This document shows, one piece after another, positions 21,632 to 54,955 of a stretch of 64,000 nt of DNA. The stretch comes from Venenivibrio stagnispumantis (GTDB lineage: Bacteria > Aquificota > Aquificia > Aquificales > Hydrogenothermaceae): NCBI RefSeq assembly GCF_900182795.1, contig NZ_FXTX01000001.1, positions 1-64,000 of the forward strand, given 5' to 3'. A program made the position numbers and the translations under genes. Below the pieces are notes generated by a model. That model did not search any database. It was not told the origin of the DNA and saw nothing but the letters and a program-made list of their open reading frames with translations. How positions within the stretch are numbered: the stretch's first letter is position 1; each line of letters begins with the position of its first letter.

Positions 21632-23118
21632 AAGAAAAACTATTCCCCACAGTTTCTGCCTGCATAATAGCAAAAAATGAAGAAAAAAATCTTCCAAGAC
21701 TTTTAGAAAGCCTAAAAGGAAAATTTGACGAGATAGTATTAGTAGATACCGGTTCAACAGATAAAACAATAGAAATAGCAAAAAGCTATGGTGCAAAAGT
21801 TTATCAAAAAGAATGGAAAGGTTTTGGAGATGCAAGACAGTTTGCAGTAGATAAAGCAACATCAGATTGGATATGGTTTTTTGATGCCGATATGGAGCTG
21901 GAAGAAGAAGAATATAAAAAATTCCAACTAATAATAAACCAAATTCATAAAGATGAAAATATAGAAGGTCTCAGGGTTTATTACAAAAATATGACTCCTT
22001 ATGGAAAAATTCAATCAATCAGCACAACAGTTCATATTCATAGAAATAAACCTTATTTAAAATGGGTAGGAAAAATCCATGAAAGGGTTGTAAATATAAA
22101 CACAAATACGATAGTGGTTCCACAATACCAGATATTTGTAAGGCATTATGGTTATAGCGATGCATCTACCCAAAAGGAAAAAGCAAAAAGAAATCTAAAT
22201 CTATTATTTGAAGAGCTAAAAGAAACAGAGAAAAACAGTTATGATTATTTTATAAATCTATTTTATATAGTCCAAAGTTATACTACTTTATCGGCTTTTG
22301 ACAAATTTTATCTAAAAGAGGTAATAAAATATGCCCAGCAATTTTTTGAAGAAATAAATCCACAGGATTATAAAAATACAATTTTTTACAAACATATATT
22401 CGTATATACCATAAAAGCATATTTTGAGCTTGATGATTTAGAAAATGCAAAAAAATATCTTAATAAATTTTTGGAAGAACTCGGAGATTATCCGGATATA
22501 ATCTATCTAAAAGCAATGATAGAAGAAAAGGAAAACAAAATAGAAGATAGCATAGAAACATTTTTATATTTTGTTTATTTATCGGATAAAATAAAGCAAC
22601 TTGGTATATTGGAAAATGTTATTTCCGATTACATAATAAATATAAATTATGTTATTTATGAAAAAATAGATAAATACAGTTCTAAAAAAGAGCTTCTTGA
22701 AATGGCAGAAAGATATTGGAAAGAAACAAAAGGAAAAAATACAGCCCTTGTTTATTATTTAATTCAAAAAGAGATAGATAAAGAAAAGGCAGAAAAATTA
22801 TTAGATAAATTTATAAAACTATATCAAGATGATGACAGATTTTTCATAGAACTGGCAAAAAATAAAGAAGATATAGAAGAACAGATAAAGATATTGGAAG
22901 AAGCAAAAATTATAAATCCGGATAATCCGGATATAAATCTAAATCTTGGTAAATTATATTTTAAAAAAGAAGATTATGAAAAAGCTTTTTACAATCTGAA
23001 AAATTATCTTGAAGTTTCAAAAGATAGCTCTGTAATACCTCTTTTAAAAGAAAGCATTGAAAAACTTGGATTTTCAGAACTTTCAAAAAATCTGACAGAA
23101 AAACTAAAAAATTTTTAA
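21628..23118 (+). CDS. Family 2 glycosyltransferase with C-terminal TPR repeats
   Basis: 496 residues. The first 230 are a GT2 (SunS/WaaE-like) domain: SACIIAKNEEKNLPRLLESL, IVLVDTGSTDKT, DARQFAVDKATSDWIWFFDADMEL (DAD metal site) and HERVVNINTN. The rest is helical with TPR-like repeats, the last being NPDINLNLGKLYFKKEDYEKAFYNLKNYL-type sequence near 430-470. It is cytoplasmic, without membrane segments. It ends just before the flagellin promoter, which even overlaps its last codons, so flagellin glycosylation is a reasonable role. That role is inferred from position only. Confidence 0.82.
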   Translation: MKEKLFPTVSACIIAKNEEKNLPRLLESLKGKFDEIVLVDTGSTDKTIEIAKSYGAKVYQKEWKGFGDARQFAVDKATSDWIWFFDADMELEEEEYKKFQLIINQIHKDENIEGLRVYYKNMTPYGKIQSISTTVHIHRNKPYLKWVGKIHERVVNINTNTIVVPQYQIFVRHYGYSDASTQKEKAKRNLNLLFEELKETEKNSYDYFINLFYIVQSYTTLSAFDKFYLKEVIKYAQQFFEEINPQDYKNTIFYKHIFVYTIKAYFELDDLENAKKYLNKFLEELGDYPDIIYLKAMIEEKENKIEDSIETFLYFVYLSDKIKQLGILENVISDYIININYVIYEKIDKYSSKKELLEMAERYWKETKGKNTALVYYLIQKEIDKEKAEKLLDKFIKLYQDDDRFFIELAKNKEDIEEQIKILEEAKIINPDNPDINLNLGKLYFKKEDYEKAFYNLKNYLEVSKDSSVIPLLKESIEKLGFSELSKNLTEKLKNF

Positions 23119-23131
23119 AAATCTCCGATAA
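23105..23131 (+). promoter_or_regulatory. Sigma28 (FliA) promoter of flagellin
   Basis: TAAA (23105-23108), 15 bases, then TCCGATAA (23124-23131) matches the sigma28 consensus TAAA-N15-GCCGATAA at all but one position. It lies 38 bases before the flagellin start codon. Confidence 0.8.
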
Positions 23132-36674: not shown

Positions 36675-37223
36675 CTATAATAAACCTCTCCTTCTTAAAG
36701 CATCTTCATATATTCTGCTATATAAAATCTTCCATTCAGGAGTTCCTTCTAAGATTTTCCTTGAATAAGATTTTATTCTACTTCTTACTTCCTTATCTAT
36801 CTCTTTTTCTTGTTTTACTATCTCTTTTAATCTTTCATGCACCATTCTTCTTATCTTGTTTGGTTCTTCAAATATCTCAACAGATGGTTCTGTTTCTAAA
36901 TATCTTTTTATTCTGTGGGCTATTTGGTTTAATCTTTCTTCCGGTTCTAAATGGATATTTCTTTCTTCTGCAAGTTTTTCTTTAACTTTCATTACAGCTG
37001 TTCTGTATCTGATTTCTTCCGATTCTAATATCTCCATATGCTCCTGAACTAATCTTTCAGCCTCCTCTTCAAGCTGTTTTTCTTCTTCTATTGCTTGGGA
37101 AATTATATTGTAAATATCTTCCCTGAATTTCTTTTCATCATCAGCTTCCACTATATGCTTTTTAAGTAATTCATCTGCTATGGAACCGGCTATTCTTTCT
37201 ACCAACTTTGCCGGTAATTTCAT
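36675..37223 (-). CDS. DUF507 family protein
   Basis: 182 residues, almost wholly helical and Glu/Arg/Lys-rich, with two repeated-looking halves. The DUF507 pattern is visible in the N-terminal half (LVERIAGSIADELLKKHIVEAD...FREDIYNIISQAI) and again in the C-terminal half (RRMVHERLKEIVKQEKEIDKEVRSRIKSYSRKILEGTPEW). Function unknown; the family is typical of Aquificota and deltaproteobacteria-like lineages. It leads the minus-strand operon and has an excellent promoter. Confidence 0.85.
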   Translation of the reverse strand: MKLPAKLVERIAGSIADELLKKHIVEADDEKKFREDIYNIISQAIEEEKQLEEEAERLVQEHMEILESEEIRYRTAVMKVKEKLAEERNIHLEPEERLNQIAHRIKRYLETEPSVEIFEEPNKIRRMVHERLKEIVKQEKEIDKEVRSRIKSYSRKILEGTPEWKILYSRIYEDALRRRGLL

Positions 37224-37252: not shown

Positions 37253-37281
37253 ATTATAATATATTCATAAAAAGTTTGCAA
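37253..37281 (-). promoter_or_regulatory. Sigma70-type promoter of the DUF507-plsC-ispH-rpsA operon
   Basis: On the minus strand TTGCAA (37276-37281), a 17-base spacer and a perfect TATAAT (37253-37258), ending 30 bases before the DUF507 start codon. Confidence 0.7.
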
Positions 37282-37297
37282 AAAAGTTTTATATTAT

Positions 37298-37325
37298 TAA
37301 AGAGTATTAACTGAAAAGCCGATAA
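37298..37325 (+). promoter_or_regulatory. Sigma28-type promoter in front of the cellulose operon
   Basis: An exact GCCGATAA -10 element (37318-37325) is preceded by TAAA (37298-37301) with a 16-base spacer, one more than the usual 15. It lies 32 bases before the first ORF of the operon. Together with the flagellin promoter it is one of only two intergenic sigma28 signatures I found. Confidence 0.65.
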
Positions 37326-37357: not shown

Positions 37358-37564
37358 ATGGAAAATATATCCGAAGCACCGGTTTTTTATATAGATGCAG
37401 AATTTGAAAAGTTGAAACAAAAATGGAAAATAATAGAATTTTTAGAAAAAGAAGGAGTTAATCAAAATTTTTTAAGGAATCTTGAGGATTTATCATTAAG
37501 TAAAGATGACTATCCTATATCAAAATTTTTGAGTTTGCTTAGAAAAAATGAAAGTAATATATAA
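37358..37564 (+). CDS. 68-residue protein leading the cellulose operon
   Basis: A small, charged, probably helical protein with no recognised domain. AAAGGAG lies 7 bases before its ATG and its 3' end overlaps bcsA by 17 bases, so it is likely to be translated. Enterobacteria also begin the bcs operon with a tiny gene (bcsR), and the analogy is positional only. It may regulate synthase assembly, or it may simply couple translation of bcsA. Confidence 0.6.
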   Translation: MENISEAPVFYIDAEFEKLKQKWKIIEFLEKEGVNQNFLRNLEDLSLSKDDYPISKFLSLLRKNESNI

Positions 37565-39824
37565 TTTAGTTGTTAATTTAATAAATAATGAAAAAATTGC
37601 TAAAATAGCTTTAGTTATTTTACTTCTCATATATGGATTTTTTATTACGCTTCCAACGCAAACTTTAAACCAGCTTATCATTTCACTTCTATTTTTTGGA
37701 GTTTTAATTGTTATTTTCAGACATAGAACCGAATATATAAAATTGATAGTAATTTTTTCTACTTTATTTATAACTTTAAGGTATTTTTATTGGAGAACAT
37801 TCAATACTATAAACACAGATAATATTTTAAATTTTATCCTTTCTATGCTTTTATATTTTGCAGAGTTTTACTCTATAATAATAGCCGTTTTGGGAGCATT
37901 TATAGCATTAAGGCTTTTAGAAAGAAATAGAATTGATATTCGTTCGTATAAACCGGAAGAACTCCCAACTGTAGATATATTTATTCCAACTTATAATGAA
38001 CCTGTGGATGTTGTAAAAATAACGGCACTTGCTGCATCATCTTTAGATTATCCAAAAGATAAATTTAAAGTATATATATTAGATGATGGTGGTACAACTC
38101 AAAAGCTAAATGACCCTGATCCGGAAAAAAGGAAAGAAAATATAGAAAGGGCAAATGCTTTAAAAGAATTTGTTAAAAATGCTAATACTAATATTTATTA
38201 TCTTACAAGAGAAAAAAATCTACATGCAAAAGCCGGAAATATAAATGAAGCTTTAAAAAAAACAGATGGAGATTTAATTCTTATATTAGATTGTGACCAT
38301 ATCCCTACTCAAGATTTTTTAAGGAATACGGTAGGTTTCTTCTTAAAATATCCAAAACTGTTTTTAGTTCAAACACCGCACAGCTTTCAAAATCCTGACC
38401 CGATAGAAAAAAATTTAGAATTATTTAGAAAAGTACCTTCAGAAAATGATATGTTTTATAAATTTATTCAAAAAGGTCTTGATTTTTGGTCATGTTCATT
38501 TTTCTGTGGCTCAGCAGCGATTCTCAGAAGGAAATATTTAAATGAGGTTGGTGGAGTTCAAGGAACAACAATCACTGAAGATGCAGAAACAGCCCTTGAG
38601 CTTCATTCTAGAGGATTAGATAGTGCTTATTTTGGAAAGAAGATGGTTTATGGTCTTCAGCCTGAAACATTTTCATCATTTATTGTTCAAAGGTCAAGAT
38701 GGGCACAGGGAATGGTGCAGATATTTTTATTAAAAAATCCATTATTAAAAAAAGGATTAAAATGGTATCAAAAGATAGGATATTTAAATTCCAGTTTTTT
38801 CTGGTTTTTCGGAATTGCAAGGGCAATATTTTTAATCGCACCAACCTTTTACCTGTTTTTTGGAGCCAGAATATATGATGCAACTTTGGAGGAATCTCTT
38901 GCTTATGCAATTCCTCATTTTATAGGATCTGTATTATTATCAAATTATCTATATGCACGGGTAAGGTGGAATTTCTTTTCAGAATTATATGAAGCATTGC
39001 AAAGCTTATTTATTTTACCTGCAATTTTAAGTGTCTTTATCAATCCAAGAAAACCTACTTTTAAGGTAACTCCAAAAGGTGAAAACATAGAAGAGGAATT
39101 TTTAAATCCTTTTTATAAACCTATTTATATTTTATTTAATCTTACTGTATTATCATTCTTTTTTGCCGTTTATAGATGGATAGAATATCCGGATGAAAGA
39201 GGAACTATCCTAATAACATTATTCTGGCAAACATTTAATTTTCTTATACTTGCATTGGGTATTATATCTATGTTAGAAAAACCTGAGAGAAGAAGGGCAT
39301 ATAGGATACCTTCAGATGATTTTGCTTTTGTTTATGTAAATAACAAAACTTTTTCCGGAAAAATTAAAGATATCTCTTTAACCGGCATATGGATTGAAGC
39401 AGACCAAGATTTAACAAATTATTTATCAGAAATAAGAGATAATTATATAAAATTTGCCATAAAAGATATAAGAGGTATATTATTTACAATAGAAGGGAAA
39501 GTAGTAAATGCCAATTCTAAAAATATAAGAGCTACTTTCTTCAATGTTGAAAAAGATTTAAAATCGTTTAGAAAATTAGTAGAAATTGTTTACTCGGATA
39601 GTACAATATGGCAATTCTGGGATCCTGATAAGGAAGCATCTCCTATTTATTCATTAAAATTTTTAACTAAAATAGCGATAATAAATTTTAGAAGAGCTTA
39701 TATTTTAGCAACAAAAGAATTTATAAATGAAATAAAGAAACTGTTTTACAATATTCTTATTAATTTAAAATCTCAAGGAGATAAGGTATGGGCATATTTA
39801 GCAAGAAATTTGAAGAAAATTTAG
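37548..39824 (+). CDS. bcsA: Cellulose synthase catalytic subunit BcsA
   Basis: 758 residues: membrane helices at both ends of a GT2 core. Processive-synthase motifs are IPTYNEP, YILDDGG, LDCDHIPT (DxD), ITEDAETALE (TED), and QRSRWAQG (QxxRW, Gln381-Trp385). The gating loop FKVTPKG (FxVTxK) is present. The C-terminal PilZ domain has both c-di-GMP motifs, RRAYR (Arg582...Arg586) and DISLTG (608-613). It polymerises UDP-glucose to beta-1,4-glucan and extrudes it, with activation by c-di-GMP. All features of an active cellulose synthase are kept, although a variant product cannot be excluded. Confidence 0.95.
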   Translation: MKVIYNLVVNLINNEKIAKIALVILLLIYGFFITLPTQTLNQLIISLLFFGVLIVIFRHRTEYIKLIVIFSTLFITLRYFYWRTFNTINTDNILNFILSMLLYFAEFYSIIIAVLGAFIALRLLERNRIDIRSYKPEELPTVDIFIPTYNEPVDVVKITALAASSLDYPKDKFKVYILDDGGTTQKLNDPDPEKRKENIERANALKEFVKNANTNIYYLTREKNLHAKAGNINEALKKTDGDLILILDCDHIPTQDFLRNTVGFFLKYPKLFLVQTPHSFQNPDPIEKNLELFRKVPSENDMFYKFIQKGLDFWSCSFFCGSAAILRRKYLNEVGGVQGTTITEDAETALELHSRGLDSAYFGKKMVYGLQPETFSSFIVQRSRWAQGMVQIFLLKNPLLKKGLKWYQKIGYLNSSFFWFFGIARAIFLIAPTFYLFFGARIYDATLEESLAYAIPHFIGSVLLSNYLYARVRWNFFSELYEALQSLFILPAILSVFINPRKPTFKVTPKGENIEEEFLNPFYKPIYILFNLTVLSFFFAVYRWIEYPDERGTILITLFWQTFNFLILALGIISMLEKPERRRAYRIPSDDFAFVYVNNKTFSGKIKDISLTGIWIEADQDLTNYLSEIRDNYIKFAIKDIRGILFTIEGKVVNANSKNIRATFFNVEKDLKSFRKLVEIVYSDSTIWQFWDPDKEASPIYSLKFLTKIAIINFRRAYILATKEFINEIKKLFYNILINLKSQGDKVWAYLARNLKKI

Positions 39825-40345
39825 AAAAATCAATATTTGAAAAACCTTCCATGGTAGAAGAAATCTTTATTCCAAAAGGTTCTGTTTATGAGGAAATTTA
39901 TAAAAATTCATTGATAGGAAGTTTTTTTGAAATCATTCTAAAAGTAGGAGATATGGATGATTTTAGAGTTTTAACAGAAAAATCTGCAGAGTTATTTTTT
40001 GAAAAAAATAAATCTTTATTTATGAGTATGAAATCTTATTCTATTTCTATTGATAGTTTAAAAAATATGGTTATAACATTAAATCAATTCTTGGATTATC
40101 ATAAATTGGGAGCCGTAAAAATAGCCATAAAAGAAAAAGAAAGTAGTTTTTATATTATACATTATAATTCTCCTTTTGCTTTAATGCTAAAAGAAAAATC
40201 TAAACAGAATGTATGTTTTTTCTTCTCTGAATTCTATTCTAAAACTTTTTCCTTAATATTTGATAGACCTATAAAAATAATGGAGGATAATTGTGCAGCT
40301 TATAATAAAGAGGATTATTGTATTTTTAAACCTTCTAATATTTAG
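39788..40345 (+). CDS. V4R-like domain protein of the cellulose operon
   Basis: 185 residues, soluble. The start ATG at 39788 lies inside the end of bcsA and has a good AAGGAG...AAGGT site. The C-terminal part (FFSEFYSKTFSLIFDRPIKI, then DNCAAYNKEDYCIF) resembles the end of 4-vinyl-reductase (V4R) domains, where a C-x7-C-x-F pattern closes a small-molecule-binding fold. Its place between bcsA and bcsB is where accessory bcs genes are found. It could be a ligand sensor or an assembly factor of the synthase. It is not recognisably BcsD. Function unproven. Confidence 0.6.
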   Translation: MGIFSKKFEENLEKSIFEKPSMVEEIFIPKGSVYEEIYKNSLIGSFFEIILKVGDMDDFRVLTEKSAELFFEKNKSLFMSMKSYSISIDSLKNMVITLNQFLDYHKLGAVKIAIKEKESSFYIIHYNSPFALMLKEKSKQNVCFFFSEFYSKTFSLIFDRPIKIMEDNCAAYNKEDYCIFKPSNI

Positions 40346-42443
40346 TTATGGCTATGCAAAAACCGACATAGTTTATTTAGATACTTTTTTGCCTAATGTT
40401 GATATTTTAAGAGGAATGTCTGGATATGCCTCTCTAACTATACCGGTTCCTGATAGATATATAATAAATGAAGCCACATTACATTTAGAGTTGAGCAAGT
40501 CTCAGGCTCTTGTACCTGAAAGAAGTTTTATATCTGTGTTTTTTAACGGAGTTTTGGTATTTCAAAAAAGATATGATCCGAGAATTGATACATTGGTTGA
40601 AGATATAAAGATTCCTATCTCATTAATAAAAGATTATAATCAATTGGAAATTAAAACTTCACAGCATTATTGTGTTAACTGTTGTGAATATGAGGCAAGT
40701 CCTGAGCTCTGGACAAAAATTTATTGGGATTATAGCTATTTAAGATTAGATTATCAAGAAAAACCATTAAAAAATAATATAATCTTTTTGAGAGATTATG
40801 TTTTAGATATTAAACAGTATAATCCTTTAAAATTTGCAATAATGACACAAAATAAATCAGATAAAATGATAACTTTTGGAGCTAAGGTTGCAGGATATAT
40901 AGGAAGGTATATTAAATATAGAAAAATCAATATAAATTATACATCTAAAATACCGGAAGATAGAGATACATTTATAATAGGAACTACAGATTATGTTAAG
41001 CAGATACTTAATATAAACAATGATATTATCCCGAATATATTTTTAGTTCCTAATCCGTATGATAGTTCAAAAGCAGTTGTAGTTATAAATGCTCCATCTA
41101 TAGATGAACTTGAGAATGTTATAAATACTTTCATATCTTTAAATGCAGAAGCATTTATAGGAGAAAATATAAGCATAAAAGAGTTTAAAAATTTCAATAT
41201 CAAACCTTATCAATCTCCTAACTTAATTCCTTTAGATAAAAAAATTCATTTAAAAAGCTTAGGATATCAGGATACAGTATTTTATGGATTTTTCCCACCA
41301 ACTTTAGATATAAATTTTGAAATTCCGGTAGATTTATTTATTTCAGGAAAAGAAAAATTTACATTCCATTTGTTTTACAATTATGGCCCTGGAGTTAGAG
41401 ATGACTCGGTAATAAATATTTTTGTTAATGATAAATTTTTAAGACAGATAAAAGTAAAAAAAGATTATGGAACTATAATGGAAGATTTAAAGCTATCCAT
41501 TCCGGTATATATGCTAAAACCAGGAAAAAATAAAATAACAGTGCAGTATGCATTAATGCCAAGAAATCAAGGATTTTGTGTAGCTCCAAATATAGAAGCA
41601 TTAAAAGGAACTGTATTTTCAAGAGAAACATATATAGAACTACCGGATTTACCACATTGGGTAGAAATGCCTTATATGGAATATTTTACAATGCAAGCTT
41701 TCCCATTTAGCATATATCCGGATTTATCAGATACGCAGATATATTTATCAAATGTTGAAGATGAAACATTATCTGCAATGTTTACATTGATGGCTTATAT
41801 AGGAGAGAAAACTGCAGTATCTCCTTATAATATATCTGTAACATCAGATATACAAAGGGTTAATAAAAATAAAAATTTAATTCTAATAGGAAACAATTTT
41901 GACCCTGTATTTTTTGAAAATACACCGATAAAAGTATCTTCAAACAATATTACCTTAAAATATAGAATTTTTGAGTTGATAAGAGAAAAGATAGAAGGGA
42001 AACTTTTGAGTAAAGAGGAATTAGAAGAATTAGAAAATTTAAGGGCAGTTTTATCAGAAAAAAATAGCCTGCAGAATGAAGTTATATTTACGATGGGTAA
42101 ATCTCCTTTTTCAGAAAATAAAACAGTATTTTTAATAATTTCAAGGGACAATAATGCATTATTTAACTCTATTCAATTATTATATGAGCCTAAATATTCA
42201 GCTAAAATAAAAGGGGATATATCTGTTGTAGATTGGGAAAAATTTGATATATATAGTGGTTCCTTAGGAGATAAATATTTTGTAGGGAATTTACCTTTTA
42301 TTAAATATATAATTTATAGAATAGGATACACTTCTCCTGTTGTATTTTTCATAATAGCAGTAGCAATTATTATACTAATAGCAATAATCCTTAAGAAGAT
42401 ATTGGATATAAGGGAAAAAAGGAGATTAGAAGGTGAAGTTTAG
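40293..42443 (+). CDS. bcsB: Cellulose synthase periplasmic subunit BcsB
   Basis: 716 residues: signal sequence (about 1-22), a periplasmic body with two carbohydrate-binding-like/ferredoxin-like repeats, and one C-terminal membrane helix (about 680-702, SPVVFFIIAVAIIILIAII). Family marks include LDTFLPNVDILRGMSGYASLTI at the N-terminus and LELSKSQALVPERS. The start is GTG at 40293 because GGAGGATAATT precedes it; this overlaps the preceding gene by 53 bases. BcsB guides the nascent glucan across the periplasm and its helix is needed by BcsA. Confidence 0.92.
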   Translation: MQLIIKRIIVFLNLLIFSYGYAKTDIVYLDTFLPNVDILRGMSGYASLTIPVPDRYIINEATLHLELSKSQALVPERSFISVFFNGVLVFQKRYDPRIDTLVEDIKIPISLIKDYNQLEIKTSQHYCVNCCEYEASPELWTKIYWDYSYLRLDYQEKPLKNNIIFLRDYVLDIKQYNPLKFAIMTQNKSDKMITFGAKVAGYIGRYIKYRKININYTSKIPEDRDTFIIGTTDYVKQILNINNDIIPNIFLVPNPYDSSKAVVVINAPSIDELENVINTFISLNAEAFIGENISIKEFKNFNIKPYQSPNLIPLDKKIHLKSLGYQDTVFYGFFPPTLDINFEIPVDLFISGKEKFTFHLFYNYGPGVRDDSVINIFVNDKFLRQIKVKKDYGTIMEDLKLSIPVYMLKPGKNKITVQYALMPRNQGFCVAPNIEALKGTVFSRETYIELPDLPHWVEMPYMEYFTMQAFPFSIYPDLSDTQIYLSNVEDETLSAMFTLMAYIGEKTAVSPYNISVTSDIQRVNKNKNLILIGNNFDPVFFENTPIKVSSNNITLKYRIFELIREKIEGKLLSKEELEELENLRAVLSEKNSLQNEVIFTMGKSPFSENKTVFLIISRDNNALFNSIQLLYEPKYSAKIKGDISVVDWEKFDIYSGSLGDKYFVGNLPFIKYIIYRIGYTSPVVFFIIAVAIIILIAIILKKILDIREKRRLEGEV

Positions 42444-43428
42444 GTATCTAATATTTAGCATAATTGCTATCTTTTTAGTTAAACCTGTATTATCGGCAGA
42501 TTGGGAGAGTTTTAAAGCTAAATTTATGAAAAATAATGAATATATAGTTGACCCTTACAATAATTATAGGGTTACTTCAGAAGCTCAGGGATATGGAATG
42601 CTAATAGCAGTTTTAAATAATGATAAATATACTTTTGACAAGATGTTAAATTGGAGTATAAATAATTTACAAAGAGAAGATAAACTTTTTAATTGGCATT
42701 GGAATGGTGGTAAAGTTATAGATAAAAATAATGCCTTGGATGGAGATTTATTTATAGCATATTCTTTATTAATGGCTTATAAAACTTGGAAAGATGAAAA
42801 ATATATTAATTTATTTAATCAAATTTTGCCGGCAATAAAACAGCTTATTTTGCCAATTTTGTGGGATAATAATGAAAATATTTTATTAATACCGGCAAAA
42901 TATGGTTTTATTCATGAAAATGAAGGAACAATTACATTAATACCAAGTTATTATATACCTTTTATCTTTAATGAATTTTATAATTATACAGCTGATGAGA
43001 TATGGGAAAAGTTATATAACTATACATTAAACCGGATTTACTCAATAAGAGATATTCCTTTCTCGGTTGATTACTCCTTATTTAGTAAAAATATTTGCAA
43101 AGTAACAAATTATGTAGATATTGATACTTATAGAATAATATTATATGCATATCTTGACGAAAATGTGGATATAATAAGAAGCTCAGGTACTTTCCAGAAA
43201 GTTATTGAATTTTATAAAAAAGAAGGTTATATACCAATTAAATTTTTCCTTGATGGAACTCCTCAAACAAAAGAAAATTCACCTTATTGTGTATACAGAT
43301 GGTTTTATTTTATTTATAATGATAAAAAACTTTTAGAAATTTACGAAAAGAATAAAGAGATAGATAAAAACAATTATTTTTGTGAAGCTCTTGATCTTAT
43401 TGAAAAAGGGCTTAAAAGAGGTAAATGA
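42433..43428 (+). CDS. bcsZ: Endo-1,4-beta-glucanase BcsZ (GH8)
   Basis: 331 residues with a signal peptide (about 1-21, cleavage near VLSA-DW). GH8 residues are conserved: the catalytic acid Glu50 in VTSEAQGYGM, WHWNGG, and Asp103/Asp105 in NALDGDLFIAY. It is periplasmic and trims cellulose, which paradoxically is needed for normal output in other bacteria. The GTG start overlaps bcsB by 11 bases and the stop overlaps the next gene by 4. Confidence 0.92.
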   Translation: MKFRYLIFSIIAIFLVKPVLSADWESFKAKFMKNNEYIVDPYNNYRVTSEAQGYGMLIAVLNNDKYTFDKMLNWSINNLQREDKLFNWHWNGGKVIDKNNALDGDLFIAYSLLMAYKTWKDEKYINLFNQILPAIKQLILPILWDNNENILLIPAKYGFIHENEGTITLIPSYYIPFIFNEFYNYTADEIWEKLYNYTLNRIYSIRDIPFSVDYSLFSKNICKVTNYVDIDTYRIILYAYLDENVDIIRSSGTFQKVIEFYKKEGYIPIKFFLDGTPQTKENSPYCVYRWFYFIYNDKKLLEIYEKNKEIDKNNYFCEALDLIEKGLKRGK

Positions 43429-46400
43429 TGGCTGTTAAATTTTTAATGTTGATATTGCTTCTGTTTAATTTTAGTTTTGCTTTTTATTTAAAGATACCGG
43501 TTAAATCTGAAAAAGAAATAAATGAAAAATTAAAAATACTCCAAGGAATAGGTTTTAATAACTGCATTATATTAAAAGATGCTATTATATGTGATGGAAA
43601 AGATGATATATATGAATTTTTAAGAGCAAGAGATTATCTTAGAAGATATAATATTATTTCTTATATAGTGGAAGATAAACCTTCATTTATTGAAAAATCA
43701 GAACAAACCAAAAAAGAAGAAAAACCAGTAGAAAAATCAGCACAAAATAAAGAAGAACCAAAAAAGGAACAGTTTTATAAAGAAATTACAAAAGAAGAAA
43801 AATCTGAACCAATATTAAAAAAAGAAAGAGAGGATAAAGCATTTGCAAAGGAAAGAATTGATAAAACAAAAGCAGAAAAAAAAGAACAAAAAGATAAAAC
43901 TGTTTATAAAGCTGATAAAAAGGTAGAAGAGGATTTAGCCGGAAAAAATTTATTTTGTATACAACTTGGTGCTTCAACAAATCTTAGCAAAGATTTATTA
44001 TCAAAATATGAAAATATAAAAAATTATCCTTTTGCAAGAATAGAAAAAATAGATGGATATTTTAAGCTTTTAATAGGAGCATTTAAAAATAGAAATGAAG
44101 CATCAAGTTTATTGAAAGAGTTGAAAAGCAGTTTTAAAGATGCTTTTATAAGAGAATGTAATATAGATAAATCAAGGATTGTTTATCCTAAAAATCAAGA
44201 TTACCAAATATCTACATCTTCTGATAAGAAAGAAATTACTCAACCAAAACAGAAAGATGATATATTAGAATTTATGGAAAGTAAAATATATCCTATCAAA
44301 AAAGAAGAAACAAAAGAAAATATAGATAATATTCAAACAAATACATCAAAAAAAGAAAAATCAATAGAAAGTCCGGAAAAAAATTCTGTAGAACTTTTAT
44401 ATGAAAATTTAAATAGTGGAAATTTAGATAAAGCAGAAGATATAGCCCAAAATTTATTAAGAAAAAATCCTAAATCTTTTGATGCTTATTTTGTACTCGG
44501 AATAATTAATTTAAAAAAGAACGAATTTAAAAGTGCTTGTAGCTATTTAGAAAAAGCTTATCAATTAAATAAAAGAAAAGATGCTAAAAATTTAAGGGAT
44601 GATGCATGTTTTGCATATTATATAAATCAAGGATATTCAAATATAGAAACACGACCTTTAGTAGCTATATCTTTATTTAAAAATGCAAAAGAATATAAAT
44701 ATGATATTAAAGCAGACATCGGAATAGGATATGCATACATAAATGCAAAAGATTATGAAAAAGCTTATTTAATATTTAAAAATCTTTATGATAGGTATCC
44801 GGATAATGATGATATTTTAAAAGGTTATATAATAACATTAAATAGGTTAAATAAAAAAGAAGAATTGAACCAAGTTATCTCAACATTACCAAAAGAAAGA
44901 TTAAAAAATTTATCTGATATTTATCTTTATGTAGAAATTGAAAATATAAATAAATTGATAAAGGAAAGAAAATTTGATGAAGCTGAAGCCAAATTAAAAG
45001 AATTATATAATAAATATCCTTCTAATATAAATGTATTGCTTGCTTTTGGAAATTTATATACAGAGCAAGGAAATTATCTAAAAGCCAAGGATTTTTATGA
45101 AAATATTCTAATATTAGAACCGGATAACATTTATGCTTTACAAGGTCTAAAATTGGTTTATATAAAAGAAGGAAATTATGATAAAGCTATAGAAATTATT
45201 GAGAAATTAGAAAGAAAAGGAATAAAAGTAGAAGATAAAGAAAAAATTTACGCTATTTATTATCTAAATAAAGCTGAGGAACTAAAAAAACAAGGCAATT
45301 TAGATGAGGCTAAAAGAATATATGAAAATATATTAAAAACCCAGCCGGATAATACATTAGCTCTAATTGGAATTGGAGATATATATCAAAAGAAAGGAAA
45401 CAAAAAAGAAGCATTCAATTATTACTCAAAAGCTTATTCCTTGGCTAAAGATAATTTTGATATAAAGATTAAATTTTTATATGCTTTATTAGATTTAAAT
45501 CTTTTTGCACAAATTAAAACCATATTAGAAGACATTGATATAAATAAATTATCTTTAGAACAACAAAGGGAGTTAAAAAAATTTTATAAAGCTTTATATA
45601 TAAAGTATGCAACTTATTTATATGAAAATAAAGATTATGAAATGGCTCTAAGAGTAGCAAGAGAAGGAATTTTGTTATTTCCGGAAGATTCTGACTTAAT
45701 AGCTATGGTAGGATGGAGCTTTTATCAATTAAAAGATTATCAATGTGCAGAAGATAACTTTAAAACATCTTATACTTTATCCGGAGATGAAAAAATTGCC
45801 ATAGGACTTGCATATGTTTATCTGAATACTGGAAAGAAAGAGCAGTTAAAACAACTTCTTCAAAAATTAGAAAACAGCACAAATCCGGAAATTTTAGTAG
45901 ATGTAGCAAATATTTATGCTTCAATAGGAGATTATAAAAAAGCAGAGAAGACTTTAGAAAATGCTAAAATTTTAAAAAATCAGGGAAGAGTTACAGAATT
46001 TAGTCCTAAATCTGAAGAAACAAAAGTTATACAAACCCAGCCTAAAACAATAGAAAAACCTAAAACAATAATACCAAACCCATTTATCCAACAGATAGAT
46101 ACAGATTTTGATTTAAAAAAAAATGAAAGAATAAATTATAATTCTTCAGATATTCCGGAAAAAGATGTTGCATATATTGATAAACAAGAAAATTCTGATA
46201 TAAATAAAAAAATAGAGCAAGTTAAAAAAATGATAGAAGAAAGCAAGCAAAATTATATATCAAATGTATCTATTGGTGGAAAATTTAGATATAAAAGTGG
46301 TGATATAGGAACCGGAAAATTACTAATTTTTTCTCCATTTGTAAAAGGTGAATACTTTTTAAAACCGGATTTAGCTTTATATTACGGTGCATATTATCCA

Positions 46401-47309
46401 TTCATAAGTTCAGGTGGAAAACCAGACTATACAAAATTTGGAACCGTAGATAACCCTGTTATAAGAGATACGGATACTTCTGCCTCCGGTTTAGAACCAT
46501 TCTTAGGAATTAAATATAATAGAGATTATATCTTACGGGCAGAGCTTTCATATTCTCCTATAGGAAATACAGCAGTAAAATCAACATTCCTTGGTAATTT
46601 TGAAATAGGAAAAGTATTAGATGATAATAAAATAACTGTTGAAGCTGGAAGATATAGTGAAAAAAATACACTTTTATCTTATGTAGGAGCACAGGATCCA
46701 CATTCTAACAATTCTTGGGGTAGAGTTACAGAAACAAGATTAGGAGTAAATTATGAAAGAATGCTTGATAAAAATGATAGTTTGATATTTTCTAGTTTAA
46801 GATATGGTAAATTGGAAGGTGAAAATACAAATAAGAATGATAAGATAGATGTCATACTTTTACCAAAAATATATATAGGAGAAAATATTTTAACAAAAGA
46901 TTATGTTGGCTTATATACACAATTTATGTCTTATAAGAAAGATGAAGATTCTTTTTATTATGGAGAAGGAGGATATTTTTCTCCTAAAAGTTATCTTATG
47001 TTAGCTCCTATGTATGAAGGATACTATTTTTCTAAGGATAGCTCTTTCGGCTTAATGGCAAAAATAATGGCCGGATTATTGAGTATAAAAACTTCCAAAT
47101 ATACAGAAAATACCTTTGCATTTGATGGATTTTTTGCAATTGAAAAGCTATTAACCAGCAGGATATCTGCATATGGAGGTTTAGATTTGAGAAAAACAGC
47201 ATCTTACTCTGAACTTTTTTATATGATGGGAATTAATTATTATTTTGACCAGAAAAATAGATTAAATAGACAGGATTTACAAAAATATGAGAAGGAAATA
47301 ATAAAATGA
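43425..47309 (+). CDS. bcsC: BcsC-type cellulose export porin with an added SPOR domain
   Basis: 1294 residues. In order: signal peptide (about 1-19); a Lys/Glu-rich linker (about 85-170); a SPOR-like domain (about 175-250) with NLFCIQLGAS...YFKLLIGAFKNRNEA; a long TPR array (about 325-870) with many DAYFVLGI- and YDKAIEI-type repeats; a second linker; and a C-terminal BcsC beta-barrel (about 945-1294) with NVSIGGKFRYKSGDIG, FVKGEYFLKPDLALYYGAYY, SGLEPFLGIKYN and a barrel end. It takes the glucan through the periplasm and outer membrane. The SPOR domain, which binds denuded peptidoglycan at septa, is not part of standard BcsC. Confidence 0.88.
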   Translation: MMAVKFLMLILLLFNFSFAFYLKIPVKSEKEINEKLKILQGIGFNNCIILKDAIICDGKDDIYEFLRARDYLRRYNIISYIVEDKPSFIEKSEQTKKEEKPVEKSAQNKEEPKKEQFYKEITKEEKSEPILKKEREDKAFAKERIDKTKAEKKEQKDKTVYKADKKVEEDLAGKNLFCIQLGASTNLSKDLLSKYENIKNYPFARIEKIDGYFKLLIGAFKNRNEASSLLKELKSSFKDAFIRECNIDKSRIVYPKNQDYQISTSSDKKEITQPKQKDDILEFMESKIYPIKKEETKENIDNIQTNTSKKEKSIESPEKNSVELLYENLNSGNLDKAEDIAQNLLRKNPKSFDAYFVLGIINLKKNEFKSACSYLEKAYQLNKRKDAKNLRDDACFAYYINQGYSNIETRPLVAISLFKNAKEYKYDIKADIGIGYAYINAKDYEKAYLIFKNLYDRYPDNDDILKGYIITLNRLNKKEELNQVISTLPKERLKNLSDIYLYVEIENINKLIKERKFDEAEAKLKELYNKYPSNINVLLAFGNLYTEQGNYLKAKDFYENILILEPDNIYALQGLKLVYIKEGNYDKAIEIIEKLERKGIKVEDKEKIYAIYYLNKAEELKKQGNLDEAKRIYENILKTQPDNTLALIGIGDIYQKKGNKKEAFNYYSKAYSLAKDNFDIKIKFLYALLDLNLFAQIKTILEDIDINKLSLEQQRELKKFYKALYIKYATYLYENKDYEMALRVAREGILLFPEDSDLIAMVGWSFYQLKDYQCAEDNFKTSYTLSGDEKIAIGLAYVYLNTGKKEQLKQLLQKLENSTNPEILVDVANIYASIGDYKKAEKTLENAKILKNQGRVTEFSPKSEETKVIQTQPKTIEKPKTIIPNPFIQQIDTDFDLKKNERINYNSSDIPEKDVAYIDKQENSDINKKIEQVKKMIEESKQNYISNVSIGGKFRYKSGDIGTGKLLIFSPFVKGEYFLKPDLALYYGAYYPFISSGGKPDYTKFGTVDNPVIRDTDTSASGLEPFLGIKYNRDYILRAELSYSPIGNTAVKSTFLGNFEIGKVLDDNKITVEAGRYSEKNTLLSYVGAQDPHSNNSWGRVTETRLGVNYERMLDKNDSLIFSSLRYGKLEGENTNKNDKIDVILLPKIYIGENILTKDYVGLYTQFMSYKKDEDSFYYGEGGYFSPKSYLMLAPMYEGYYFSKDSSFGLMAKIMAGLLSIKTSKYTENTFAFDGFFAIEKLLTSRISAYGGLDLRKTASYSELFYMMGINYYFDQKNRLNRQDLQKYEKEIIK

Positions 47310-48034
47310 TTATAACAGTAGCTTCTTTAAAAGGAGGTGTAGGAAAATCTACAGTAGCTTTAAATATTGCATATGGATTATCAACAAAATATAAAGTTTT
47401 ACTTATAGATTCAGATCCTCAAAACAGTATATCATCTTTTTTATGTACAGATTTCAGCAAAGGTTTTTCTGAAGTATTATTTGGAGATGTTGCTTTAAAA
47501 GATGTTATTATCAAACCTTATTTGGATAATAATAATTTTTTTATAATACCAACCGGATTAAAAAGTTTAAGATATACTGAAAAATATGAAGAACTTTTCG
47601 ATTCTGAAAGCTTTAAAGAAGTTATTAATCAGATAAAAGAATTATCGTTTGATTTTGTTTTATTTGATACTCCTCCAAGAATCTCTAAACAAAATGAAGC
47701 TTTATTAAAGAATTCTGATTATTTCTTTATAGTAGTTAATCCGGATCCTGCTTCTTATGCTTCTTTTTATCTATTTTTAGAATTTTTAAAAGAAAATAAT
47801 CTTGAAAATTTTTATGTAATAGTTAATAAAGTAGAAGCAACTGAAATAGCAGAAGAATTTAGTTTAGCCATAAAACATAAATCAAGTAATCGGATAATAG
47901 CTTTTGTACCTTCTGATATTGTAGTAACAGAATCGGAAGGTAAATGTGAACCGGCAATCAAAAGAAATCCGTCATCGGCATTTTCTTTATCTATAAAAGA
48001 GTTGATAGATAACTTTTTAAAAATCTTAAGTTAA
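47306..48034 (+). CDS. bcsQ: ParA/MinD-type ATPase BcsQ
   Basis: 242 residues with the deviant Walker A VASLKGGVGKSTVALNIAYG (residues 5-24), IDSDPQNS, and the FVLFDTPPRISK switch. BcsQ positions the cellulose machinery, at a pole in E. coli. Here it closes the operon rather than opening it, overlapping bcsC by 4 bases. A septal SPOR domain on BcsC and this localiser together point to a spatially fixed synthase. Confidence 0.9.
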   Translation: MIITVASLKGGVGKSTVALNIAYGLSTKYKVLLIDSDPQNSISSFLCTDFSKGFSEVLFGDVALKDVIIKPYLDNNNFFIIPTGLKSLRYTEKYEELFDSESFKEVINQIKELSFDFVLFDTPPRISKQNEALLKNSDYFFIVVNPDPASYASFYLFLEFLKENNLENFYVIVNKVEATEIAEEFSLAIKHKSSNRIIAFVPSDIVVTESEGKCEPAIKRNPSSAFSLSIKELIDNFLKILS

Positions 48035-49354: not shown

Positions 49355-49834
49355 ATGAGAAAATTTGCAATCTTAATTATATCAGCATTCTTCTTATTGT
49401 CTTGCTCTACAGTTACAAATATTCAAAATACAAAATTAGAAAAAGATAAAAAAATTGTTATTTTGCCATTAAAAAATAATACGGAAACTATCTATGCCGG
49501 TAAAAGAGTATCAAGTATTATTAGAAATATTTTACAAACAAAAGGTTATGATGTTGTTTATATAGAAACAAAGGATGATGAAAATATTGATATAGACAGA
49601 TATAAAGAGTTAGCAAAAAGTAATGGTGATTATATTTTAATCGGAGAAGTTAATGAGTTTAGATATAAAACAGGAATAGATGGAGAGCCGGCTGTAAATA
49701 TTTCTCTTAATCTTATTGATTTAAAATCAGATAAAGTAGTGTGGTCTGCTGTTGGTTCTAAAACTGGCTGGGGACATGAGTCTATTACTACTATTGGACA
49801 AAAATTGATAAATGAATTATTTAGGAATTTTTGA
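49355..49834 (+). CDS. pelC: PelC-like outer-membrane lipoprotein
   Basis: 159 residues with a lipoprotein signal ending in the lipobox FLLSC (Cys17). The mature part has the PelC alpha/beta outline (KIVILPLKNNTETIYAGKRVSSIIRNIL, GDYILIGEVNEFRY, KVVWSAVGSKTGW). In Pseudomonas PelC forms a dodecameric ring under the outer membrane that funnels the positively charged Pel polymer to PelB. It opens the Pel operon, and its TGA overlaps the pelD start (TGATG). Confidence 0.82.
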   Translation: MRKFAILIISAFFLLSCSTVTNIQNTKLEKDKKIVILPLKNNTETIYAGKRVSSIIRNILQTKGYDVVYIETKDDENIDIDRYKELAKSNGDYILIGEVNEFRYKTGIDGEPAVNISLNLIDLKSDKVVWSAVGSKTGWGHESITTIGQKLINELFRNF

Positions 49835-51063
49835 TGTTAAAAAGATTTTTTAGAGTTGAAACAGATTTATTTACAATAGGTATCCTTTTTGAGGTAATTT
49901 TATTTAGTATAATATATTTTGGTATAGGATATTTTTACAATAAGACAGACCCTTTTTTAATAAAGCAAGAAATAAACTTCCTTCTTATATTTTTATTAAC
50001 TTTAACTCTTTTTTATGGTTTAGCAATAGGGTTATTAATTATATTTTTATTTGCTGTTTTTATGTATTATTACTATCATCCATTTCCAATATATTATTTT
50101 TTAGAAAATTTGGTGGTTGTATTAATTGCCGGTGAATTTAATTTCTTTTATAAAAAAAGTTTTAAAAGACTAAAAGAAGAAAATAAATATATAGAATCTA
50201 AAATTAACCAACTTAGAAATGCTTTTTATTCTTTAAAATTGTCCCACGACCAACTTGAAAAAAGTTATATTTTAAAACCGGTTAGTTTAAGGGCTATTTT
50301 ATATGATATAAAAAATCTTACTTTACAAAATGAAAAAGAAGCTGCAGAAGAAGTCATGAAAATAATTGTTAAGTTATTTGATGTTAAACAAGCATTATTT
50401 TTAAAAGATAATCAAATATTAGCTTATATTGGAGAAAAATTTAGTATAAATCAAGATGATGAGATGATAAAAACTGCCATAGAAGAAAAAAGAGCCGTAT
50501 ATATTGCAGAAAATATAAATAAGGAAGAGCTTGGTGAAGAATATCTTGCCGTTATACCGGCTATAAATATGGAAAACGAAATAACAGGATTATTCATAAT
50601 AAAAGAAATGCCTTTTTTAAATTTTAATAAGGAAAATATAATGGTTATATCTATAATAATTTCTTTATTTGCAGATTTCTTAACATATAAAAAATCCGTA
50701 GAAAAATATAGAGATATTAGTTTATGTGAGCCGGAGTTTATGTATGAAGTTGATAGATTAACCAAATTACAAAAAGATTTTGGTATAGAAACCCATTTAG
50801 TAATGTTTAAATATTATGAAAAGTTTAATATAGATAAAGAAGAATTTTTTGAATTTATAGAGAATAATATAAGGACCGTAGATATGGTTTGCAAACAAGG
50901 AGATATTGCCATTGTTTTATTACCTTTTGTGCCTTTATCAGGTGCAAAAGCTTTTCAAGAAAGGATGAAAGAAAAATTATATCAAGAATTGAATATAGAA
51001 TTATTTTATAGCAAAATTATTAAATTAGAAGAGAAAAATATAAATAAAATATGGAAATATTAA
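49834..51063 (+). CDS. pelD: PelD-like c-di-GMP receptor
   Basis: 409 residues: four N-terminal membrane helices (about 8-105), a coiled segment (about 108-140), a GAF domain (about 145-290) and a degenerate GGDEF domain (about 300-409). The diguanylate-cyclase active site is gone, but an inhibitory-site-like RTVD motif (Arg347-Asp350) is retained in the position used by Pseudomonas PelD to bind c-di-GMP. Arg377 may be the second arginine. It should license Pel synthesis at the inner membrane by activating the PelF-containing complex. The ATG at 49834 is preferred over TTG at 49831. Confidence 0.88.
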   Translation: MLKRFFRVETDLFTIGILFEVILFSIIYFGIGYFYNKTDPFLIKQEINFLLIFLLTLTLFYGLAIGLLIIFLFAVFMYYYYHPFPIYYFLENLVVVLIAGEFNFFYKKSFKRLKEENKYIESKINQLRNAFYSLKLSHDQLEKSYILKPVSLRAILYDIKNLTLQNEKEAAEEVMKIIVKLFDVKQALFLKDNQILAYIGEKFSINQDDEMIKTAIEEKRAVYIAENINKEELGEEYLAVIPAINMENEITGLFIIKEMPFLNFNKENIMVISIIISLFADFLTYKKSVEKYRDISLCEPEFMYEVDRLTKLQKDFGIETHLVMFKYYEKFNIDKEEFFEFIENNIRTVDMVCKQGDIAIVLLPFVPLSGAKAFQERMKEKLYQELNIELFYSKIIKLEEKNINKIWKY

Positions 51064-51065
51064 TT

Positions 51066-52076
51066 ATGAATTATAAAAAATTATCTATTTCCTTATTATT
51101 AGAAATGTCTGCAATAGCTTTTTTATTAATGAATAATTTATATGGGATAATAGTTTTTTATACTTTCCATAGTTTAGCAAGTTTTATACTCAGTTTGGTT
51201 CTTTATCCCCTAATCCCTATAAAATTTAAGATTAGAAACAATAAGATATTTTTTATATTTTTTGTAACATTAATTCAAATTGCTACATTGTTAGTTGGAT
51301 ATATATTCTTTATTTTCATCGTTTTGTGGTTACTTAGACACCAGGAAAAACCAGAAGAAAAATTTTTAGATAAATTTTCTTATTCAGAAATTTTTGAGTT
51401 TCCTTCTGTAAAAAGACAATTCGGAGAGTCTGCAATTATAGAAGTTTTAACAGGAAAAACTCAAAAAGCTACAAAACTAAAATTAGTATCTCTTTTATCT
51501 GAATTTAAATCAAAAGAAGCTATTCAAGTAATAAAAACATTACTTTCTGAAAAAGATGACGAAATTAGATTGATGAGTTTTGGTATTATAAATAAAATTG
51601 AAACAAAGATTAATAGAGAAATTAAAGAGAAATTAGATATATTAGAAAAAAAGTTAGATAATTTAGAAAAAGCTTATATTTATAAAGATTTGGCCAAATT
51701 ATATTGGGAATTAGTTTATCTTGAAATAGCTGACAAAGAGATAGAAAAATTTTTACTTGAAAAGGTAAAATATTACATAGAAGAGAGCAAAAAATTTGGT
51801 CTTGAAGATGCAGAAATATTCTTTTTAGAAGGAAGAGTTTTACTCGAAATTTACAAAGAAAAAGAGTTTTTAAAAAAAATAATTTTAGAACAGGCTTTAA
51901 ATAAATTTTTGGAAGCAATTAAATATAAATATCCCAAAGAAAAAGTTTATCCTTATATAGCTGAAATTTATTTCTATAAAAAAGAATACAAAAGATTAAA
52001 AGAAATTCTACAAGAGATTAAGGATATTGCTAAATATGATTTTAAATTATATCCGATATTAGAAGTATGGGAATAA
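51066..52076 (+). CDS. pelE: PelE-like inner-membrane TPR protein
   Basis: About 336 residues: two or three N-terminal membrane helices (about 8-90) and a cytoplasmic, TPR-like helical C-terminal part (EKAYIYKDLAKLYWELVYLEIADKEIEKFL, YPYIAEIYFYKKEYKRLKEIL). This architecture and its place between pelD and pelF identify PelE, a partner of PelD/PelF/PelG in the synthase complex. Sequence similarity itself is low. ATG 51066 has GGAA 9 bases upstream; an in-frame ATG at 51051 overlaps pelD. Confidence 0.8.
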   Translation: MNYKKLSISLLLEMSAIAFLLMNNLYGIIVFYTFHSLASFILSLVLYPLIPIKFKIRNNKIFFIFFVTLIQIATLLVGYIFFIFIVLWLLRHQEKPEEKFLDKFSYSEIFEFPSVKRQFGESAIIEVLTGKTQKATKLKLVSLLSEFKSKEAIQVIKTLLSEKDDEIRLMSFGIINKIETKINREIKEKLDILEKKLDNLEKAYIYKDLAKLYWELVYLEIADKEIEKFLLEKVKYYIEESKKFGLEDAEIFFLEGRVLLEIYKEKEFLKKIILEQALNKFLEAIKYKYPKEKVYPYIAEIYFYKKEYKRLKEILQEIKDIAKYDFKLYPILEVWE

Positions 52077-52079
52077 ATA

Positions 52080-53591
52080 ATGAGCTATATAAGAAAAGCT
52101 GATAATGTAGATATTTTGATATTGGCAGAAGGAACATATCCTTATATAAAAGGTGGAGTATCTTCTTGGATACATCAACTAATATCCGGTTTAAAAGATT
52201 TTACATTTGGTGTGGTTTTTTTGGGAAGTAGAAAGGAAGATTATGGTGAGATAGGCTATAAGCTTCCTGATAATTTATTACATTTAGAAGTCCATTATCT
52301 ATTTGATAATTTTGATAAACCTGTGATAAGAAAGCTTAAAGGGAATAAAAAATCTTTTAAGAAAGTAGAAGAACTTCATAATTTTTTTAAAGAAAAGAAA
52401 GAATTACCGAAATATTTGAAAAATTTAGATTTTTACAATAAAGAGGTTGATTTTCCTCAATTTTTATATAGCAAACTTTCTTTTGAAAGAATTGTAAATG
52501 AATATATGAAACATTGTCCCGATTTGCCATTTATTGATTATTTCTGGACAGTCAGGAATATACATTATCCTATTTGGAAAATTACGAAAATTGCAGAAAA
52601 TTTAAATATTGCAAAAATATACCATAGTCCTTCAACAGGTTATGCTGGATTTTTGGGGTCTTTGCTAAAATTTAGTTTTAAAAAACCTTTTATACTTACA
52701 GAACATGGAATTTATACAAGGGAAAGGAAAATAGATTTACTTACTGCTGAGTGGGTAAAAGAACATAAACCGTATTTATTAAAAGGTTCTATTGAAGAAA
52801 ATTATATCAAAAATATGTGGGTAAAGTTTTTTGAAGGTATAAACTATTTTTGTTATGAAGGAGCAGATAAAATCTTATCTTTATTTGAAGGGGCAAGACA
52901 GATACAGATCAGTTATGGAGCAAAAGCCGAAAAAACAGAAGTTATACCAAATGGTGTTGATATAGAAAGATATATAAAACTCGTTCCTGAAAAAGAGAAA
53001 TATAAAAATTTAAAAACAATTTCACTTATAGGCAGAGTTGTGCCTATAAAAGATATTAAAACTTTTATAAGAGCTATTAGAATAGTTGTAGATAAAATTC
53101 CTGATGTTCAAGGATGGATAGTAGGACCTGAAGACGAAGATAAGGAGTATGCGCAAGAATGCAGAGATATGGTTAAGATGTTATCTTTGGAAGATAATGT
53201 AAAATTTCTTGGATTTCAAAAAATAGATGAAATACTGCCTAAAACAAAAATATTAACTTTGACATCTATCAGTGAAGGTATGCCACTGGTAATATTGGAA
53301 GCATTTGCAACAGGGACACCGGTTGTAGCTACTGATGTAGGTTCATGTAAAGATTTAATATATGGCTCCTTAGATGAAGAAGATAAGGAAATAGGACAGG
53401 CAGGATTTGTAACATCCATAGCAAACCCTACAGAACTTGCAGATAAATATATAAAATTATTAACTGATGAAAATTTATGGAAAGCCTGTCAGAAAGCTGC
53501 ATTGGAAAGGGTAAAAAAATATTATTCTCAAGAACTATTTTTCCAAAATTATAGAAGAGTATATGATGAGGCATTAAGATGGCAGGAATAG
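52080..53591 (+). CDS. pelF: PelF glycosyltransferase (GT4)
   Basis: 503 residues. The PelF hallmark AEGTYPYIKGGVSSWIHQL (about 17-35) is present, followed by FGVVFLGSR and a GT4 C-terminal half with IPNGVDIERY, ISLIGRVVPIKDIKTFI and SEGMPLVILEAFATGTPVV (the E-x7-E type site). It is a cytoplasmic GT-B enzyme that polymerises GalNAc/GlcNAc from UDP-sugars in Pel synthesis. It ends 13 bases inside pelG. Confidence 0.95.
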   Translation: MSYIRKADNVDILILAEGTYPYIKGGVSSWIHQLISGLKDFTFGVVFLGSRKEDYGEIGYKLPDNLLHLEVHYLFDNFDKPVIRKLKGNKKSFKKVEELHNFFKEKKELPKYLKNLDFYNKEVDFPQFLYSKLSFERIVNEYMKHCPDLPFIDYFWTVRNIHYPIWKITKIAENLNIAKIYHSPSTGYAGFLGSLLKFSFKKPFILTEHGIYTRERKIDLLTAEWVKEHKPYLLKGSIEENYIKNMWVKFFEGINYFCYEGADKILSLFEGARQIQISYGAKAEKTEVIPNGVDIERYIKLVPEKEKYKNLKTISLIGRVVPIKDIKTFIRAIRIVVDKIPDVQGWIVGPEDEDKEYAQECRDMVKMLSLEDNVKFLGFQKIDEILPKTKILTLTSISEGMPLVILEAFATGTPVVATDVGSCKDLIYGSLDEEDKEIGQAGFVTSIANPTELADKYIKLLTDENLWKACQKAALERVKKYYSQELFFQNYRRVYDEALRWQE

Positions 53592-54955
53592 GCTTTGAAC
53601 TTAGAAAAATCTTAAAGGAAAACAGTTTACTTTCTATTCTCAAAGTTTACGGATACTCTGCTGTTTTATCTTCCGGTAGTTGGATTATTTCTATATTAAG
53701 TATTGTTTTTATTGGAATTGTTAATATATATATTACAAAAAAATATACAGATATAGTTCAATTTCAGGTAGTTATAACTTATCTCATTGCTTTTAGTTTG
53801 ATTTTTACAGGGTTTTTTCAGCTATCTTTTACAAGATATATTGCAGATAGACTTTTTGAAAAAGATTATAAAAGGGTTTTGCCTAATTATTTTGGTGTTT
53901 TGTTTATAACTTTTTTAGTAGGTCTTTTAGTTTTTATTCCTTTATCATTATGGATTTTCCCCCAGCAGAGTAATTTGTTTAAAATTCTTTTTATTTCTTC
54001 TTTTCTTGTATTATGTGGTATCTGGCTTTCTAACTCTTTATTACTTGGGCTGAAAGAATATAAAAAAATAGTTTCTTTCTTTGCAATAGGATATCTAATT
54101 GTTATAATTTTGAGTTATTTAATTAGAAAATTTGGATTAGATGGATATTTGTTTTCTTTTTTCTTAGGTAATAGCTTTATATTTTTCTCTATAGTTTATC
54201 TTATTGTTAAACATTATGAATCTGATAAATTATTTGAACTTGATTTTTTATTAAATAAAAAACATAGAATATATTTTTCTATTGCCGGTGCTGGACTTTT
54301 TTATAATCTCGGTATTTGGATTGATAAATTTATATTTTGGATACATCCGGAAACAAATTATAATGTAATAGGCAAACTTAATGCTTCTATTGTTTATGAT
54401 TTACCGATTTTCTTAGCGTATCTGTCAATAGTTCCTGGAATGGCTATATTCTTTTATAGATTAGAGGCAGATTTTGCGGAAAAATATGATAATTTATTTA
54501 ATGCCATTAGGACAGATGGAACTTTTGAGCAAATTATAACATATAAAAATGATATGATTGAAACTATTCGTATAGCAATAAAAGAAACTATCATTACCCA
54601 AGGAATATTTAATATTTTAATTTATATCTTCTCAAAAGATATATTCAAGGTACTTAATATTCCTTTATTATATTTACCATTATTTTACATTGATTTAGTA
54701 GGTGTTCAATTGCAATTAGCATTTATGGCTATTCTTGCTATACTTTTTTATATTGATAGAAAAAGAGAAAGTTTGTTTTTAACTTTATTATTCTTTTGTT
54801 TAAATGGAATTTTTTCTTATCTTTCTATTAAAGCCGGATATATGTTTTACGGTTATGGATTTGCTTTATCTTTACTTATCTCTTTTATTGTATCTCTTAT
54901 TATATTAAGGAGGAATATAGATGATATTGAGTATGAAACGTTTTCTTTACAGTAA
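53579..54955 (+). CDS. pelG: PelG inner-membrane transporter
   Basis: 458 residues with about twelve membrane helices in an MOP/Wzx-like layout. The N-terminus MAGIGFELRKILKENSLLS is the characteristic PelG start; SGSWIISI and GAGLFYNLGIWIDKFIFW follow. It moves the polymer made by PelF across the inner membrane. It overlaps pelF by 13 bases and pelA by 35. Confidence 0.95.
   Translation: MAGIGFELRKILKENSLLSILKVYGYSAVLSSGSWIISILSIVFIGIVNIYITKKYTDIVQFQVVITYLIAFSLIFTGFFQLSFTRYIADRLFEKDYKRVLPNYFGVLFITFLVGLLVFIPLSLWIFPQQSNLFKILFISSFLVLCGIWLSNSLLLGLKEYKKIVSFFAIGYLIVIILSYLIRKFGLDGYLFSFFLGNSFIFFSIVYLIVKHYESDKLFELDFLLNKKHRIYFSIAGAGLFYNLGIWIDKFIFWIHPETNYNVIGKLNASIVYDLPIFLAYLSIVPGMAIFFYRLEADFAEKYDNLFNAIRTDGTFEQIITYKNDMIETIRIAIKETIITQGIFNILIYIFSKDIFKVLNIPLLYLPLFYIDLVGVQLQLAFMAILAILFYIDRKRESLFLTLLFFCLNGIFSYLSIKAGYMFYGYGFALSLLISFIVSLIILRRNIDDIEYETFSLQ

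Follow-up and report, generated by a model that had tools for sequence, protein, structure and literature searches.

The first 64,000 nucleotides (nt) of contig NZ_FXTX01000001.1 of Venenivibrio stagnispumantis (Hydrogenothermaceae), here called the window, carry a cellulose synthesis (bcs) operon. This operon is probably (about 0.78) transcribed from a sigma28-type promoter, read by a sigma factor of the FliA family, at positions 37298-37325, with the transcript predicted to start some 25-27 nt before the first open reading frame (ORF). At the level of sequence the regulatory reading has good support: the box itself, the rarity of such boxes at comparable positions in the genome, and the conservation of the box ahead of bcs in flagellated genera other than this one. 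The elements of the promoter, and the flagellin promoter used as a reference, are as follows.

37298-37325, + strand: sigma28-type box, TAAAGAGTATTAACTGAAAAGCCGATAA, of the form TAAA-N16-GCCGATAA
37298..37301, + strand: -35 core TAAA; the octamer TAAAGAGT spans 37298-37305
37318..37325, + strand: -10 element GCCGATAA, identical to the sigma28 consensus, 16 nt past TAAA
37343..37357, + strand: end of the leader, with the Shine-Dalgarno sequence AAAGGAGA ahead of the ATG
23105..23131, + strand: reference sigma28 promoter of fliC, TAAA-N15-TCCGATAA; Flagellin_N and Flagellin_C domains in the gene

The sigma28 consensus of Escherichia coli is TAAAGTTT-n11-GCCGATAA (PMC2859248). The -35 octamer of the bcs box agrees with it at 6/8 positions, with TAAAG at -35 and an exact TAAA core, and the -10 element agrees fully, as the preliminary description of this DNA had claimed. 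The coordinates given there are right, as are the distance of 32 nt from the box to the ATG at 37358 and the box ahead of flagellin at 23105-23131. The pattern TAAAN{14,17}GCCGATAA was matched once in the window, at the bcs box (shuffled mean 0.05).

Across the genome (1.56 Mb, 41 contigs) the looser pattern TAAAN{13,17}NCCGATA gave 48 matches, compared with 89 for the reversed control. Genome-wide enrichment was rejected on this count, and position and conservation were therefore used as tests, with conservation as the decisive one. The 47 distinct match sequences were classified by script, and all except five lie within ORFs of at least 100 amino acids (aa). Only three intergenic matches are followed, 33-39 nt downstream, by a ribosome-binding site and a start codon: those of fliC, flgK (identified by TIGR02492) and bcs.

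Flagellar promoters of the family and conservation ahead of bcs

For comparison, fliC, flgK and flgM loci were taken from relatives within the Hydrogenothermaceae. The fliC and flgK promoters read TAAAAAAW-N11-(T/G)CCGATAATAA and their spacing from TAAA is nearly always N15, with two flgK promoters readable as N16; the invariance of these sites is in part a result of selection, as they were picked with a CCGAT-like pattern. The flgM promoters read TAAAGTTT-N11-ACCGAAAA, and once ACCGAATA; that of G008 is TAAA-N15-ACCGAATA. The ACCGAAA variant of the -10 element at flgM promoters, together with TAAAGTTT-N11, is conserved across genera and differs from the CCGATAA of fliC and flgK.

A matrix built from fliC and flgK promoters only underscored bcs sites with CCGAATA, and flgM promoters (CCGAAA/CCGAATA) were added as a remedy. 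The final matrix comprised 31 fliC, flgK and flgM promoters, all of them from relatives; no site of the V. stagnispumantis genome and no bcs site was used in training. It was applied to the 110 nt ahead of the first bcs ORF, and 220 upstream regions served as controls. BcsB was found in seven genomes of the family, and the upstream DNA is readable in six (in G031 it lies past the contig end). The sites and matrix scores are listed below.

G025: TAAA-N16-TCCGAATA, score 17.2
G000 (the genome of the window): score 13.8
G028: TAAA-N15-TACGATAAG, score 12.5
G018: TAAA-N15-ACCGAATAA, score 10.0
G023: TAAA-N15-ACCGAATAA, score 6.6
G013: score 1.3

The box thus stands ahead of bcs in 5/6 readable genomes, from three genera. 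The highest control score was 9.1, which is exceeded by 4/6 bcs sites; the difference between bcs sites and controls has a Mann-Whitney p of 7e-7 for all six sites and of 1e-4 when each genus contributes a single value. TACCGAATAATAAG is unchanged between G018 and G023, in which the bcs DNA is 81% identical and the rest of the leaders has diverged. The CCGAA variant of the boxes in G018, G023 and G025 is also present at flgM promoters, and CCGAATA is used by one of them.

According to the preliminary description, the reading would be refuted if close relatives with the operon lacked the box. Among the readable genomes this applies to one, G013, which has lost its flagella as well: it keeps bcs and is without FliF and flgK, its flagellin is broken, and its bcs operon begins 22 nt past another gene. 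The best candidate there is a weak TTAA-N16-GTCGATAAG within that preceding gene. The joint loss of box and flagella fits a flagellar promoter, as a single case. No such box was found in a relative from the Campylobacterota (L047), and the conservation is therefore confined to the family.

Alternative explanations and the sigma factor

Several observations weigh against a sigma28 promoter for bcs. The spacer is N16, one base beyond the consensus, which comes from E. coli, and beyond the N15 of nearly all flagellar promoters of the family; with the matrix held to N15 the window site scores 4.8 (top 2.3% of controls). G018 and G023 carry CCGAATAA in place of CCGATAA, and their boxes are less certain because a 9/12 sigma70-like match overlaps them. 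TATAAT is present in the bcs upstream region of G025, G013 has no clear box, and the box is known from only three independent genera. One chance intergenic match would be unsurprising, so the three matches in front of genes could include one, and the genome-wide position result is supportive, not decisive. Finally, either of two FliA-family sigma factors might read the box.

The genome encodes two sigma factors of the FliA/WhiG family, plus FlgM, FliF, FlgK and flagellin; "FliA" is therefore ambiguous and is used here as shorthand for a sigma factor of this family. The longer one (~243 aa, contig C21) has a non-flagellar neighbourhood, the adjoining ORFs being, as we read them, homologues of ruvA, aroK and acpS. 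The shorter one is located as follows.

L174:16240-16866 (G000:C1, ~156740-157366), - strand: short sigma factor, 208 aa, without Sigma70_r3, heading the flagellar cluster

Its best match in the PDB is the FliA of Aquifex (1RP3). Across the family the presence of the short sigma tracks flagella and that of the long one does not: the short sigma was not found in the non-flagellated genomes of the family, and the long sigma is retained in G013, G016, G022 and G031, all without flgK and/or FliF. FlgM is also retained in G013 and G031, which suggests a non-flagellar role for the pair of long sigma and FlgM. In a tree of the FliA family the two sigmas stand clearly apart, and the FliA of the Aquificaceae is placed securely with neither (support 80/65).

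The box might accordingly be read by the long sigma, with bcs in a non-flagellar regulon that has a common recognition sequence. The neighbourhood of this gene and its persistence in the four genomes named above speak for such a regulon. The same box, however, stands at fliC and flgK, and G013 has the long sigma but neither a clear bcs box nor the short sigma; we consider this explanation unlikely. The claim of the preliminary description that FliA drives bcs is supported in part, for the type of promoter, which is flagellar, conserved in other genera of the family and without a sigma70 rival on its strand; "FliA" may stand for either of the two sigmas.

Slightly less likely still is a housekeeping promoter that simple scans missed and that mainly drives bcs, the sigma28 box adding a modest boost. 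Sigma70 promoters of thermophiles may have weak -35 elements, and the sigma70-like matches in G018 and G023 and the TATAAT of G025 lie in the region concerned. Yet the 134 nt upstream of bcs hold no sigma70 match on the + strand in G000, G028, G025 and G013. The preliminary description had named a start site elsewhere with sigma70 elements as a finding that would speak against the box; in the window, a scan of the + strand across the 134 nt between the genes for sigma70, extended -10 and sigma54 matches able to serve bcs found none, and these readings were rejected. The sole strong sigma70 site of the region points the opposite way.

37253..37281, - strand: divergent sigma70-type promoter TTGCAA-N17-TATAAT, serving the DUF507 gene (36675-37223)

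A functionless chance match in AT-rich DNA, for which the imperfect spacer and the 48 against 89 genome matches (about one before a gene by chance) could be cited, is very improbable given boxes of the same class ahead of bcs in three genera, most of them scoring above every control, and the identity of TACCGAATAATAAG in two otherwise diverged leaders.

The bcs operon and its proposed regulation

The operon behind the predicted sigma28 promoter is a genuine bcs operon, as had been described: it contains bcsA, bcsB, bcsZ, bcsC and bcsQ plus two small genes, according to Pfam and NCBIfam profiles. The profiles of bcsA (TIGR03030), bcsB (PF03170), bcsC (PF05420) and bcsZ (PF01270) are over their cut-offs.

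37358..37564, + strand: first ORF of the operon, 68 aa, function unassigned; overlaps bcsA; relatives have an equivalent ORF in this position
37548..39824, + strand: bcsA, cellulose synthase with C-terminal PilZ domain (TIGR03030, 889 bits; PF07238)
39788..40345, + strand: protein of 185 aa encoded between bcsA and bcsB, with weak similarity to BcsD and V4R
40293..42443, + strand: bcsB (PF03170, E 1e-98)
42433..43428, + strand: bcsZ, endoglucanase of glycoside hydrolase family 8 (PF01270)
43425..47309, + strand: bcsC, with SPOR, TPR and BCSC_C barrel (PF05420)
47306..48034, + strand: bcsQ, ParA-like ATPase (PF13614, PF06564)

The first ORF is conserved (68-105 aa), and so is the 185-aa protein (174-185 aa). 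The latter is a candidate for bcsD, a subunit of type I operons; its PF03500 match is weak and below the cut-off, and among its homologues PF03500 is matched in 3/5 and PF02830 in 4/5, with a best E of 4.6e-4.

A pel exopolysaccharide operon lies downstream (49355-61448, + strand), with a pelC-like lipoprotein, PelD GGDEF, PelF, PelG, a PelA-like protein and the PelB barrel. The gaps from bcs via aroD and a redoxin gene toward pel measure 13-44 nt, and with no terminator predicted between bcs and pel, read-through from bcs is possible. A bolder reading, of low probability, makes the bcs operon of the Hydrogenothermaceae a true late-flagellar operon. It would be gated by FlgM and read by the region-3-less sigma28 whose gene heads the flagellar cluster, and it might extend via aroD and the redoxin gene into pel. 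Completion of the hook would then equip swimming cells in advance with two machines for matrix polysaccharides.

The PilZ domain of BcsA (PF07238, 7e-7, residues 580-682) contains RRRAYR...DISLTG, that is, the RxxxR and DxSxxG motifs. Because of these motifs cellulose polymerisation probably awaits cyclic di-GMP (c-di-GMP), which would gate the activity of the synthase through this domain. In the proposed order of events FlgM would hold the FliA-type sigma until the hook is finished, and its release would free the sigma; RNA polymerase with this sigma would make bcs mRNA together with that of fliC and flgK. Flagellated swimming cells would thus carry a ready cellulose synthase, and on contact with a surface c-di-GMP would bind the PilZ domain and synthesis would begin. 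What keeps motility and cellulose apart would then be control of the enzyme, not of transcription.

The usual view is that motility and cellulose belong to mutually exclusive programmes, split by transcription. The conserved sigma28 promoter ahead of bcs suggests a later split in this early-branching family of thermophiles, at the enzyme and probably by c-di-GMP. Swimming cells of Venenivibrio and of several related genera probably build the cellulose machine beforehand, rather than deciding for either swimming or sticking. Filament-linked attachment in flowing hot springs, offered as an example in the preliminary description, would be a speculative ecological role for such control.

Comparison with known systems

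No earlier case of a FliA-driven bcs operon was found in the literature searched. The sigma28 promoters of E. coli, such as that of aer (PMC2859248), have the identical -10 element and TAAAG at -35; their spacer is one base shorter, and they serve flagellar and chemotaxis genes, in contrast to the matrix polysaccharide here. In Pseudomonas putida the cellulose operon is likewise linked to the flagellar regulator network and to c-di-GMP (PMC5026340, PMC6424431). Its promoter PbcsD was, however, measured to be independent of sigmaN and of FliA (PMC5026340) and is repressed by FleQ/FleN (PMC5026340, PMC6424431), whereas here the sigma28 box itself is the predicted promoter.

The regulatory logic has a precedent by analogy, for another polysaccharide. 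The nfrBA-ybcH exopolysaccharide operon of E. coli is FliA-dependent and activated by c-di-GMP (PMC8669469), and the statement of the preliminary description that motility and cellulose synthesis are opposed in most bacteria needs qualifying in its light. The two systems would have in common the control of an exopolysaccharide operon by a FliA-type sigma, and the NfrBA product can slow motility (PMC8669469). NfrB, which comes from another phylum, is no cellulose synthase: it has an MshEN domain, and its precursor is probably N-acetylmannosamine (ManNAc). In V. stagnispumantis the predicted promoter stands before a full bcs operon.
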